A DNA stretch of 64,000 nt from Chlorobium sp. (GTDB taxonomy: Bacteria > Bacteroidota > Chlorobiia > Chlorobiales > Chlorobiaceae). The notes under the pieces were generated by a model. The model did no database searches. It was not told the DNA's origin and was given only the letters and a program-made list of their open reading frames with translations. The translations under genes and the position numbers were made by a program. The stretch covers positions 124,001 through 188,000 of the forward strand of contig SZXV01000009.1 of NCBI GenBank assembly GCA_005862225.1. Direction: 5' to 3'. Of this stretch, positions 8,639-12,365 are shown in pieces; position 1 is the first letter of the stretch, and each line of letters opens with the position of its first letter.

Positions 8639-9945
8639 GACACCTCTATTTATTCTTGAAGACTATATCTATTAATAATAAAACATTTTACATTTTATCA
8701 ACAAGCTATAAAATAGTATATTAAGAGTGATAAAATCCATTTATAGCTTTGCTGTATGAAAAACATCAATCCATTAGGTCTTTTTGACGAACATTTGCTT
8801 CTTGAGAAGCTCTCGAAACTCAAGGATCCGTTAGTCAAACTGGAAGCGCATATTGATTGGAACATTTTCAAACCTATTCTTGACGAAACGTTGAACAAAC
8901 CAAAAATCAGTCATGCTGGTCGCCCACTGTTTGATCATATCATGATGTTCAAAATTCTTATCTTGCAGAGCCTTTACAACCTCTCTGATGATCAAATGGA
9001 ATATCAGATTCTTGATCGGCGAAGCTTTATGCGTTTTCTTGGCTTGAAAATCAGTGATAAAGTTCCAGACAGCAAAACCATATGGAAATTCCGAGAAACC
9101 CTTATCGATGAAGGTGTTATCGAAGCTGTCTTTTATCGTTTCAATGCCATGCTTGATCAACACAACCTTTTTGCTCAAACCGGTCAAATCGTTGATGCAA
9201 GTTTTGTGGAAGCACCACGTCAACTCAACAGTCGTAAAAAAAACAGCTTGATCAAAGCAGGCAAAACTCCAGAAGCATGGAAAGAAAATCCACACAAGCT
9301 GCGTCAGAAAGATATTGATGCCCGTTGGGTCAAGAAAAACAATATCAGTTTTTACGGTTACAAGAATCACATCAAGCTCGATCAAAGCACCAAACTTATT
9401 CCCACGTATGCTGTTACTGATGCGGTAGACCACGATTCCGTTGCTCTTGAAACCTTGCTTGAAATGAGTGATGGTGGTCAAATCTTGTACGGTGATAGTG
9501 CGTATGTTGGTCAGGAAAAGATCATTGATGAGTGTCACATGACCAGTAAAATTCATGAAAAAGGATATTGGAACAAACCCTTAACTGACGAGCAGAAAGC
9601 ATCAAACCGTGAAAAATCAAAAATCAGAGCACGGGTTGAACATGCCTTTGGTTTTATGACCAACAGTATAGATGCGATGTTTGTCAAGACCATCGGTATT
9701 TGGCGGGCGGCTGCTAAAATTGGCATGACCAACCTCACCTACAACATGATGCGCTGTGTGCAGTTGAAAAAGAAAATTTATACCCTCTAATTTTCTCAGG
9801 GGGGTAACTACGTCCAAAAGGTACTGATCGCTCTCTTTTACACAAAAAACATGTCAAAGAACAATAATTTTCTGGATTGTCAATGATCTCTTGGTTTTGC
9901 CTCAGATCAAATTAATATTTCAAAAGTCAATTTTTAGAGGCTCCC
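8638..9945 (+). mobile_element. IS5-family insertion sequence
   Basis: An element of about 1.3 kb carries one full transposase gene. The proposed ends are GGACACCTCTA (8638-8648) and the complement of the right end, GGGAGCCTCTA (9945-9935), which agree at 8 of 11 bases including CCTCTA. They are flanked by a short direct repeat (ATTA, extended to ATTAG). The inverted repeats are short and imperfect, so the exact ends are tentative, but the transposase is certain. It sits between bchF and the AT-rich three-gene cassette. Confidence 0.65.
8756..9790 (+). CDS. IS5-family DDE transposase
   Basis: The 344-residue protein is collinear with IS5-subgroup transposases. GRPLFDHIMMFKILILQ and YNLSDDQMEYQILDR form the N-terminal part, PDSKTIWKFRE precedes the catalytic core, the first Asp is in IVDASFVEAP, the second in YGDSAYVG and the Glu in IRARVEHAFG, followed by KTIGIWRAAAK. 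The reading frame is unbroken and full length, so the element may still be active. The enzyme cuts and joins the ends of the IS at short targets. Start ATG 8756 is the first in frame after the left end. A 241-codon open frame on the opposite strand is a shadow. Confidence 0.93.
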   Translation: MKNINPLGLFDEHLLLEKLSKLKDPLVKLEAHIDWNIFKPILDETLNKPKISHAGRPLFDHIMMFKILILQSLYNLSDDQMEYQILDRRSFMRFLGLKISDKVPDSKTIWKFRETLIDEGVIEAVFYRFNAMLDQHNLFAQTGQIVDASFVEAPRQLNSRKKNSLIKAGKTPEAWKENPHKLRQKDIDARWVKKNNISFYGYKNHIKLDQSTKLIPTYAVTDAVDHDSVALETLLEMSDGGQILYGDSAYVGQEKIIDECHMTSKIHEKGYWNKPLTDEQKASNREKSKIRARVEHAFGFMTNSIDAMFVKTIGIWRAAAKIGMTNLTYNMMRCVQLKKKIYTL

Positions 9946-10116
9946 ATTAGTTAGAAGTGTATTGTTGTCACCTTTATCATTTTATAAATTGTATGCCCAT
10001 ATACACCTTATGTATATTCTGAATCTTTGATTGCGGAAATTGCATATCGTCGCATCTTTTTATCTTGCTCTTGCAAAACGTAATTTATTGGTGGTGTGAT
10101 TTTTGGGGAGAAAAAT
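9791..10116. promoter_or_regulatory. IS right end and leader of the three-gene cassette
   Basis: No gene is seen in these 326 bases. The first 155 belong to the IS right end. The rest is AT-rich and contains a perfect inverted repeat, ATATACA (9999-10005), 5-nt spacer, TGTATAT (10011-10017), about 100 bp before the first cassette gene; this could be an operator. GGGGAG at 10105-10110 is a strong ribosome-binding site for ATG 10117. No clear -35/-10 pair was fixed. Confidence 0.4.
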
Positions 10117-11010
10117 ATGTGTACAGAAAATGAAAAACTATCGTTAATTATTAGTCGAGAAGATGTTTTCTCCTCTAGATATTTTGATTATCAAAAATCA
10201 GATAAATATATCTATTACAACAAACATAATGAACAAATAGAAGTTGGAGTTTATACCCATTATTTAAGCGCTACTAGTACGGATATTGCAATCGATTTAT
10301 CCACAATGATTGGTTGCCCAATGAAATGCTTATTCTGTCAATCTGCAAGTGTTAATTATGAAAGGAATTTAAGTTCTGATGAAATAGCGGTAATAGCAAA
10401 AAGAATTATAAAGAACCATATACATAAAAACACAAAGCAAATAACTTGTAGTTTACAAGGAATAGGCGAACCTAGTTTAATACCAGAAACAGTGATTGAT
10501 TTGTATCAACAACTAATTAATTATGATAAACGAGTAAAATATAGTATTTCAACGATTGGGGCAAGCATTGACGGACTAAATAAAATTATCAATTCAGGAA
10601 TAAAAATAGATAATTTGCAAATCACAAAATGCGGAACCACAAATATCGTTGAAAAAGAATTGACTCCTAACGGAATAAGTATTGCAAAATTATCTGAGTT
10701 AATTAAAGAAATTATAAAACGACACAATATAAAAAAAGCAAAACTTAACTATATTTTGATAAAAGGCAAGACTGACAGCAAAGAAGATTTACAAAATTTA
10801 ATAGCCATATTCAAAAATAGGGGTATTGCCATAAAAATCTCATATTTAAATGAAACAGAATGTTCTACTAAATATGGACTATTACCAACGAGTTATAATG
10901 AAGCAATTTTATTTTCTTCAGAGTTACAAGAAAACGGCATAGATAGCTATGTTTTTGGTTCTTTTAAAAACATAGCCATAAGTTGTGGTCAATTATTAAC
11001 TAAAAAATAA
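10117..11010 (+). CDS. RlmN/Cfr-like radical SAM protein, shortened and atypical
   Basis: From ATG 10117 (GGGGAG six bases upstream) the protein has 297 residues; the frame extends to GTG 10096 but the later start is better. The radical SAM cluster motif CxxxCxxC is Cys67, Cys71, Cys74 (GCPMKCLFC). Further RlmN/Cfr traits are LQGIGEPSL, LNYILIKGKTDSKEDL and the C-terminal ISCGQL, whose Cys290 matches the methyl-carrying cysteine of RlmN. Two differences stand out. It lacks most of the N-terminal accessory domain of RlmN (about 380 residues). The second RlmN catalytic cysteine, seven residues before the cluster motif, is Asp60. RlmN and Cfr methylate adenosine in 23S rRNA (RlmN also tRNA); here the substrate is unknown. 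It is AT-rich, unlike the bch genes around it, and first of a tight operon. Confidence 0.8.
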   Translation: MCTENEKLSLIISREDVFSSRYFDYQKSDKYIYYNKHNEQIEVGVYTHYLSATSTDIAIDLSTMIGCPMKCLFCQSASVNYERNLSSDEIAVIAKRIIKNHIHKNTKQITCSLQGIGEPSLIPETVIDLYQQLINYDKRVKYSISTIGASIDGLNKIINSGIKIDNLQITKCGTTNIVEKELTPNGISIAKLSELIKEIIKRHNIKKAKLNYILIKGKTDSKEDLQNLIAIFKNRGIAIKISYLNETECSTKYGLLPTSYNEAILFSSELQENGIDSYVFGSFKNIAISCGQLLTKK

Positions 11011-11016
11011 GTTAAC

Positions 11017-11757
11017 ATGGATCAAAAAACATTTGAGTACAAAAATTTAATTTTGTTTGTCGCTCTTGCTCTGTTTCTTTCTTTAGTTGGTGCATTTTAC
11101 CTCTATCCCGATATATTACTCTTATGTAATAATATTATTTTTAACTTAGGTATGTCTATGTTTGGTACTTTATTTGGGTTGCTTCTCTTTTTTAATCCTA
11201 AAAAATCGAATTACTTTTCATTTATCAAACCAAATCATGAATTAGATAAACAATACTGGATAGAATTTATTCATGGAATAGATGAAGACCCAAAAACCGT
11301 TTGGTTTGTCGGTGATAAAAGCTATAAATGGATAGATCCGAAAGACAAATACTTTGAGACTGTAAATAAGAAAATAATATCAAGATTAACACAAAAAGAT
11401 TTAAATAGCGATAAAGATGGATGGTGTATACATATCATTGTGTCGGATATTGATAGTGCTAATAAATGGAAAAAGCTAATAGAGGAAATGGAAACAATTA
11501 ATAAAAGCATAAAGAATAAAAGAGTTAAAATCGGCTTATTAACTTCTGGAAAGATAAAATATTCAATTGTCGCTTATCATAAAAAAATGGTAATAGTGAC
11601 CTTTATGAGTAATGGACATATTGATAACAGTCCAACTTTTGAAATAAATAGAGAAAATTTAGTTTATAAAGCATATTTGAATGATTTAGACACCATATAT
11701 GGAGATGAAAAAATTACATGGCTGTTAAATTATGAGAAAAATATTATCATTGAATAA
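11017..11757 (+). CDS. two-helix membrane protein with soluble C-terminal domain, unknown
   Basis: I do not recognise a named family. The 246-residue protein has two N-terminal membrane helices (about residues 10-30 and 35-58) and then about 185 soluble residues. The soluble part contains TVWFVGDKSYKWIDP, a coiled segment rich in Lys/Glu and a strand-rich end, VKIGLLTSGKIKYSIVAYHKK, then MSNGHIDNSPTFEINREN. The order strand, HKK, strand, then Phe-rich end faintly recalls degenerate phospholipase-D-like domains of signalling and defence proteins, but the HxKxxxxD motif is not intact, so this is only a suggestion. It starts 6 bp after the radical SAM gene and ends 2 bp before the SLOG gene, with the same AT-rich codon use. 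It could be the membrane effector of the cassette. Confidence 0.55.
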   Translation: MDQKTFEYKNLILFVALALFLSLVGAFYLYPDILLLCNNIIFNLGMSMFGTLFGLLLFFNPKKSNYFSFIKPNHELDKQYWIEFIHGIDEDPKTVWFVGDKSYKWIDPKDKYFETVNKKIISRLTQKDLNSDKDGWCIHIIVSDIDSANKWKKLIEEMETINKSIKNKRVKIGLLTSGKIKYSIVAYHKKMVIVTFMSNGHIDNSPTFEINRENLVYKAYLNDLDTIYGDEKITWLLNYEKNIIIE

Positions 11758-11759
11758 AA

Positions 11760-12365
11760 ATGACTTCACTTAAGATAGGCATATTTGGGCATGAAAAATC
11801 AAATACTACTTCAACGGTATTTGAGTCAGCCACAAAAATTGGGCAACTTATAGCCATAAATGGCCATACTCTTTACAATGGTGGTGGAGCAGGGGTAATG
11901 TTATCAGCAAGGCAAGGAGCATTTAGTGAACACGGAAGTATTGTTTCAATTAATCCAGATCAAGCTATAGAAGATATTCATAACAATATGCTTGGCAATA
12001 TTGTTATGACAGGGCAAAATAAAATTGGTCGGGTGCCAATTTTGTGCCAAACAATTGATATTGGCTTTGCGTTAAGTGGAGGGGCTGGCACATTATTAGA
12101 AATAATAACCTGCTATTTATTAGCAAAGCCTATTATTGTTATTGATTTCAACAACTTTTCTGCTAGTAGCAGAGTGAATCAGTTTTTTTATAAAACAAAT
12201 ACAATTGCTTTAAACGGAAAAAACTTTGAGATAGGTTACTTAGATGATAAGGATTCCAAGTATGTCTCTCCCATACTTATTCTTAATATTGAAATTGGAA
12301 TCGAAAATATATTTTCATTAGGAATTGAATATTATAAAAATATTACGGGAGACAAATGTCTATAA
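11760..12365 (+). CDS. LOG/SLOG-family Rossmann nucleotide-binding protein
   Basis: The 201-residue protein starts 2 bp after the preceding stop. It has the hallmarks of the lysine-decarboxylase-like/LOG (SLOG) fold: an opening KIGIFG strand, the phosphate-binding YNGGGAGVMLSA loop (residues 38-48) and LSGGAGTLLEI (residues 104-114), which corresponds to the PGGxGTxxE motif with Ser in place of Pro. Enzymes of this fold cleave nucleoside monophosphate glycosidic bonds (cytokinin activation) or bind nucleotide-derived ligands; SLOG domains are recurrent sensors in predicted bacterial conflict systems. Coupling to a membrane protein and a radical SAM enzyme on an AT-rich inserted segment makes a sensor or hydrolase role in such a system plausible but unproven. 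It ends 49 bp before bchC. Confidence 0.72.
   Translation: MTSLKIGIFGHEKSNTTSTVFESATKIGQLIAINGHTLYNGGGAGVMLSARQGAFSEHGSIVSINPDQAIEDIHNNMLGNIVMTGQNKIGRVPILCQTIDIGFALSGGAGTLLEIITCYLLAKPIIVIDFNNFSASSRVNQFFYKTNTIALNGKNFEIGYLDDKDSKYVSPILILNIEIGIENIFSLGIEYYKNITGDKCL

Follow-up and report, generated by a model that had tools for sequence, protein, structure and literature searches.

RlmN and Cfr methylate adenine at C2 or C8, and a second catalytic cysteine has been reported to be indispensable for both; this residue has been proposed to serve chiefly as a general base, and without it a covalent adduct of protein and RNA is trapped (PMC9692996). LOG-like SLOG proteins separate modified adenine from ribose (PMC9503650), and the catalytic residues of CgLOG are Arg99 and Glu122 (PMC4979012). 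Two-helix SLATT proteins are predicted effectors of nucleotide-signal conflict systems (PMC9503650, PMC7159879). In the Chlorobium locus analyzed here, an RlmN/Cfr-like radical SAM protein, a two-helix membrane protein and a LOG-like SLOG protein are encoded side by side. No description of this trio was found in the literature outside the 2015 SLOG survey, which may hold an earlier mention.

The stretch of DNA under analysis, 64,000 nucleotides long, is referred to as the window. The cassette occupies positions 10117–12365 of its forward strand and is flanked by bchF (PF07284) on one side and bchC–bchX on the other. The features of the locus are as follows.

9955..10116, + strand: leader preceding the cassette; it aligns with that of the second carrier, L003 (DNA alignment with L003, empty sites)
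near 9955, + strand: left end of the acquired segment (DNA alignment with L003, empty sites)
10105..10110, + strand: Shine-Dalgarno-like GGGGAG of gene 1 (sequence)
10117..11010, + strand: gene 1, RlmN/Cfr-like radical SAM protein, 297 aa (PF04055; TIGR00048/TIGR04432 below cut-off; PDB relatives)
10294..10296, + strand: Asp60 codon at the RlmN Cys118 position (30-sequence alignment)
10315..10338, + strand: CxxxCxxC iron-sulfur cluster motif, C67/C71/C74 (alignments)
10984..10986, + strand: codon of Cys290, in SCGQL, which aligns with the methyl-carrier Cys355 of RlmN (alignment)
11017..11757, + strand: gene 2, orphan membrane protein, 246 aa, with two helices at the N-terminus and a soluble part at the C-terminus (hydropathy)
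11041..11193, + strand: two predicted transmembrane helices, residues ~9–31 and ~39–59 (hydropathy; low-confidence model)
11760..12365, + strand: gene 3, LOG-like SLOG protein (LDcluster4), 201 aa (PF18306 over cut-off; PDB relatives)
12030..12101, + strand: LOG-type active-site residues R91 and SGGAGTLLE 106–114, including E114 (alignment with LOG structure 5zbj; PMC4979012)
12366..12414, + strand: right margin of the acquired DNA, reaching to the start codon of bchC (12415) (L003 alignment, empty sites)

The three open reading frames are co-directional with intergenic gaps of 6 and 2 bp, genes 2 and 3 each starting a few bases past the stop codon of the preceding gene, and the GGGGAG lies 6 nt upstream of the gene 1 ATG. 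The GC content of the 2249-bp cassette was 0.289, compared with 0.455 ± 0.020 (minimum 0.411) for windows of the same size over the rest of the 64 kb, and the GC3 was 0.20–0.24 versus 0.49–0.56 for bchC and bchF. The earlier note, made from the letters alone, had described three tight same-strand genes, AT-rich, with codon use unlike that of the bch genes and with a ribosome-binding site ahead of the first; all of this was confirmed, the positions and gaps to the base. A search for RNA families returned no match.

The second carrier, the Chlorobiaceae genome L003 (MAG contig CAILRB010000058.1, G205:C58), holds the trio in identical order and at the identical site, with protein identities of 84%, 87% and 89%. 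Between the window and L003, dN/dS was 0.16–0.23 for all three genes. Recurrence in a second genome at this level of identity, together with these ratios, indicates that the genes are genuine and under purifying selection.

Among 98 Chlorobiia genomes, the middle protein was present in two and missing from 96, and in a 395-genome sample of the phylum it was found solely in the same two carriers, in both of which the cassette is complete and located at bchF–bchC. In neither set was the middle protein ever found without the other two genes. Close relatives of gene 1 in the 395-genome sample were also confined to the two carriers; the remaining radical SAM hits were open frames of 349–511 residues, and those examined have ordinary RlmN motifs. 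The phage and plasmid collections contained RlmN-like proteins and no middle protein, the viral contigs gave no match with the radical SAM or SLOG queries, and no cassette DNA was found in E. coli genomes; the genome-contig scan was seeded with short exact matches and its range is close relatives only. A housekeeping or photosynthesis gene set was considered and rejected, as the cassette is missing from 96/98 Chlorobiia; a housekeeping group common to all Chlorobiaceae was a finding that the earlier note had named as fatal to its own reading. Recurrence of the trio in unrelated genomes, which the note had proposed as a check, was not seen; both carriers belong to a single genus.

Two carriers only, and no independent family linking the three genes, are what would be expected of three unrelated acquired genes that lie adjacent by chance and form no single functional unit. 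This explanation carries very little probability, given the 6- and 2-bp gaps, the retention of every gene in two lineages, the low dN/dS throughout and a middle protein that was never seen apart from the other two genes in the genomes searched.

The spacing between bchF and bchC at 28 other Chlorobium loci is ~16–47 bp (distances good to ~1 base; empty-site sequences inspected directly), and these loci represent clean empty sites. The cassette and a leader of ~160 bp occupy this short spacer. In the bchF+bchC tree, the two carriers are not sister taxa, as the window groups with L036 (support 1.0) and L003 with L035 and L038 (0.93), all three of them empty at the site. Synonymous divergence from one carrier to the other was 0.23–0.48 for the cassette versus 0.71 for bchF and 1.09 for bchC, a comparison that is rough owing to the strong AT bias of the cassette. 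Since the carriers are not sisters and the cassette has diverged less than bchF and bchC at synonymous sites, horizontal acquisition or exchange is indicated, the alternative to horizontal arrival being vertical inheritance with several losses. The 3′ end of bchF and the 5′ end of bchC near the cassette in L003 lose the otherwise higher similarity to L035, a pattern that is consistent with entry of the cassette into L003 by homologous recombination in the flanks but falls short of proving it. The empty sites, the non-sister carriers and the gene order kept in both also support the mobile unit of three genes moving together that had been proposed from the sequence.

No clear target-site duplications or terminal inverted repeats were found at the cassette ends. 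An IS5-family element (window 8642–9850) lies between bchF and the cassette; it was considered as the mobiliser and rejected, because it is present in the window only and absent from L003. Two copies of the IS5 family (L122–L125), 71–72% identical, lie close together on contig C11, and beside them a 48-bp segment of the right flank (92%) is present in inverted orientation.

The gene 1 protein matched PF04055 above the cut-off (E = 6e-9), its nearest curated models were RlmN and Cfr, and its PDB relatives were Cfr (9p0p) and RlmN (4pl1/5hr6). It scored below the cut-offs of both models (57.9 bits against 290 for RlmN and 51.9 bits against 550 for Cfr). Residues were compared in 30 aligned sequences, comprising both carriers and 28 relatives. 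The CxxxCxxC motif (C67, C71 and C74), the equivalent of RlmN Glu105 (E42) and the methyl-carrier cysteine at the RlmN C355 position (C290 in SCGQL, both carriers) are kept. The position of the second catalytic cysteine, RlmN C118, is occupied by Asp60 in both carriers, compared with Cys in 24/28, Gly in 4/28 (all four phage) and Asp in 0/28 relatives. The methionine of the GMGEP motif, which we take to be RlmN Met176, is present in 28/28 relatives and replaced by Ile116 in the gene 1 protein. The first cluster cysteine is preceded by 66 residues, versus 96–201 in cellular and plasmid relatives, counts that were made in open frames and whose upper values include extensions.

Because the defining residue, the second cysteine, was tested for and is missing, the gene 1 protein is placed outside RlmN/Cfr, although the first steps of its reaction may run in the RlmN/Cfr manner. 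Asp60 could in principle act as the base, or the chemistry of the enzyme could differ; the Asp60 and Ile116 changes could also mean a different or lost activity. With the second catalytic cysteine and the conserved methionine absent and the N-terminus short, the gene 1 protein is not an ordinary RNA methylase, and on this point the interpretation in the earlier note was not supported as written. As a natural RlmN-like enzyme with the methyl carrier kept and the second cysteine gone, the protein offers a direct test of the role of that cysteine.

These residues bear on whether the cassette is a unit for RNA modification or resistance, in which gene 1 would methylate rRNA or tRNA in the style of RlmN/Cfr, Asp60 serving as the base, and the remaining genes would supply accessory stress functions. 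RlmN and Cfr are indeed the closest families, the methyl-carrier cysteine and the Glu105 equivalent are retained, and the second cysteine, in its proposed main role of a general base (PMC9692996), could be replaced by Asp. Such a unit is nevertheless unlikely, although it deserves some weight: the same cysteine was reported indispensable in RlmN and Cfr (PMC9692996), the conserved methionine is gone and the N-terminus is short, the window genome also holds an ordinary RlmN (G000:C5), and an RNA methylase alone would leave the obligate SLOG and membrane partners unexplained.

Short RlmN-like radical SAM proteins are encoded by several phages, namely the crAss-like Kehishuvirus, Pectobacterium phage Wc4, Vibrio phage D479 and Moorella phage MTATph1. 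They share with the gene 1 protein a short N-terminus and the absence of the second cysteine, whereas the methyl-carrier cysteine loop is absent from their annotated frames, they form a separate clade, and no SLOG or middle-protein neighbor occurs in the regions read. SLOG proteins are common in large phages, where they have been proposed to counter host ADP-ribose signals (PMC9503650). Both observations would suit accessory or counter-defence genes derived from a mobile element or phage, which would block or rewire the nucleotide signalling of other systems instead of protecting the cell. This origin is very unlikely, as the phage radical SAM proteins are a separate group lacking such neighbors, the cassette surroundings contain no phage or plasmid genes, and the middle protein is absent from phage and plasmid records. 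Glycine at the second-cysteine position was seen in the phage group at L007:3818-4639, L008:3926-4714, L009:3875-4720 and L011:3875-4750. One gene separates the RlmN-like gene from an SPFH gene in the crAss-like phage, and the match in the Moorella phage spans two annotated CDS, possibly reflecting a frameshift or split.

The gene 3 protein scored 80.5 bits with PF18306 LDcluster4 (cut-off 26.3), which places it in the SLOG superfamily, and its relatives are TIGR00725 proteins, a Moco carrier protein (PDB) and LOG enzymes. In the alignment to the P. aeruginosa LOG structure 5zbj, R91 and E114 coincide with the catalytic pair named for CgLOG, and the adenine-contact residues differ from those of LOG. 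The motif reads SGGAGTLLE and not PGGxGTxxE, the proline of PGG being replaced. The scores with TIGR00730 (35.7 bits, cut-off 96.35) and the cytokinin-LOG model NF058542 (25.2 bits, cut-off 300) were both below cut-off. As judged by these profiles, gene 3 encodes a SLOG protein but not a LOG protein in the strict sense. Around other SLOG genes of the phylum, neither a radical SAM gene nor a middle-protein gene was seen up to 1.5 kb away. A TIGR00725-like SLOG gene of another phylum member (L067:1474-1998) lies between nuclease-like and glycosyltransferase-like genes.

The gene 2 protein has, by hydropathy, a pair of hydrophobic helices, and its soluble part comprises ~180 residues. No believable match was obtained in Pfam, NCBIfam, PADLOC or PDB, with nothing in Pfam even at E = 10, SLATT profiles included, and the matches in PHROGs were weak only. 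Distant relatives were absent from the plasmids, phages, viral contigs and 395-genome phylum sample, profile hits at E ≥ 0.007 looking like chance, and none was found in 191 genomes of another family in the phylum, a search run without a positive control. The AlphaFold models had pLDDT values of 40 and 38, too low in confidence to use, and Foldseek gave no match. A PLD-like soluble part, considered for its HxK-like H188/K190, was left unproven, with no profile, PDB or Foldseek match.

The bchX–typA interval of L003 contains complete HmaA, HmaB and HmaC, a PtuA-like ATPase and a PrimPol/helicase-like gene, with HmaC directly past bchX and two genes from the cassette. The bchF–typA distance in 32 measurable genomes had a median of 2.3 kb and exceeded 3.3 kb, with more than 1 kb extra, in 10/32, both carriers included. 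Inserts in the bchX–typA gap (loci L126, L157, L158, L159, L161 and L162) carry known and candidate defence genes. G237 has Wadjet JetB, JetC and JetD, and G363 has JetD in a matching gene arrangement; G225 carries a PtuA fragment together with a type II methyltransferase and a PDC-S01 candidate, G292 a PDC-M32A gene and G249 a PDC-S02-like gene. As controls, ten housekeeping proteins of the window gave no PADLOC match at the same threshold, and the SBP–bchF gap was 62–240 bp in 29/29 measurable genomes. The varied inserts and the negative controls point to the bchX–typA gap as a hotspot for the insertion of defence genes in Chlorobium, where unknown systems of green sulfur bacteria may be sought. 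A methyltransferase-like gene recurs in the inserts of three species (L160:2683-4586, L161:9928-11837 and L162:2212-3006); it adjoins a same-strand radical SAM-like gene in L160 and L161, and HipA-like genes are also found in the inserts of the L160–L162 species.

The cassette lies on the opposite side of bchC–bchX from the hotspot. The conflict-system unit that the earlier note had suggested is supported in part by its setting: the Hma and PtuA-like genes of L003 and the nearby genus-wide gap are defence-rich, whereas the gap of the window genome itself is empty. No PADLOC-DB 2.0.0 model matched any of the three proteins, and the match of PsyrA to the SLOG part (E = 0.006) is not significant for the size of that library. 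Judged by these sequence comparisons, the cassette is a horizontally acquired unit at the bchF–bchC junction of some Chlorobium lineages, near a genus-wide defence hotspot.

The position of the cassette also allows another role. It sits in the bch operon in the same direction and no terminator was found before bchC, so co-transcription with the bch genes is possible; together with the Moco carrier protein among the PDB relatives of the SLOG protein, this would fit metabolic or regulatory cargo for bacteriochlorophyll synthesis or a cofactor instead of a conflict system. Absence from 96/98 Chlorobiia, the foreign composition, the mosaic distribution and the defence-rich surroundings make such cargo highly improbable.

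Since the RlmN/Cfr and LOG-like SLOG groups both act on adenine, the production and release, or the sensing, of modified adenine is the simplest joint reading of the two enzymes. The best explanation, which we put forward tentatively, is a conflict module that makes or processes modified adenine, with the membrane protein as the effector; that the unit is defence-related at all is somewhat probable. In this module, the gene 1 protein would methylate its own C290 and add a methylene radical to adenine in a nucleotide or an RNA; Asp60 would replace the usual second cysteine as the base, or a stalled adduct would remain. The SLOG protein would cleave the base–ribose bond of the altered adenine nucleotide, yielding a cytokinin-like modified-adenine signal, or would sense the altered nucleotide. 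The two-helix protein would alter the membrane when infection, presumably by a phage, changes adenine chemistry. It is distinctly unlikely that a radical-made adenine modification is itself the defence signal or weapon, such that the Asp-for-Cys enzyme makes a new nucleotide or adduct, a LOG-type hydrolase frees a cytokinin-like messenger and the two-helix protein executes. Counting against a defence reading are the two carriers in one genus, the location outside the hotspot, the emptiness of that hotspot in the window genome, the lack of a PADLOC match, the Asp60 and Ile116 changes and a middle protein to which no fold could be assigned. If the cassette is a defence unit, radical SAM adenine chemistry would join nucleotide-based immunity.

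Set beside the described systems, gene 1 shares with RlmN/Cfr (TIGR00048, TIGR04432) the radical SAM core, the cluster motif, the Glu105 equivalent and the CGQL methyl-carrier cysteine, and differs from them in having Asp for the second cysteine and Ile for Met, a shorter N-terminus and scores far under the curated cut-offs. Gene 3 has in common with the LOG phosphoribohydrolases (CgLOG, PMC4979012) and the TIGR00725/LDcluster4 group the SLOG fold family and the catalytic Arg/Glu positions, and departs from LOG in its SGG, altered adenine contacts and sub-cut-off TIGR00730 and cytokinin-LOG scores. The gene 2 protein resembles the SLATT 2TM effectors as a two-helix membrane protein by hydropathy, but has no match to SLATT or any other domain profile. 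Like the predicted SLOG/TIR + 2TM (SLATT) conflict systems, the cassette is a mobile unit in which a SLOG protein stands beside a two-helix membrane protein; unlike them, it lacks a SLATT profile match and includes an added radical SAM enzyme. We class it as a variant of the conflict modules that combine a SLOG protein with a membrane protein, one in which the radical SAM partner is unusual.
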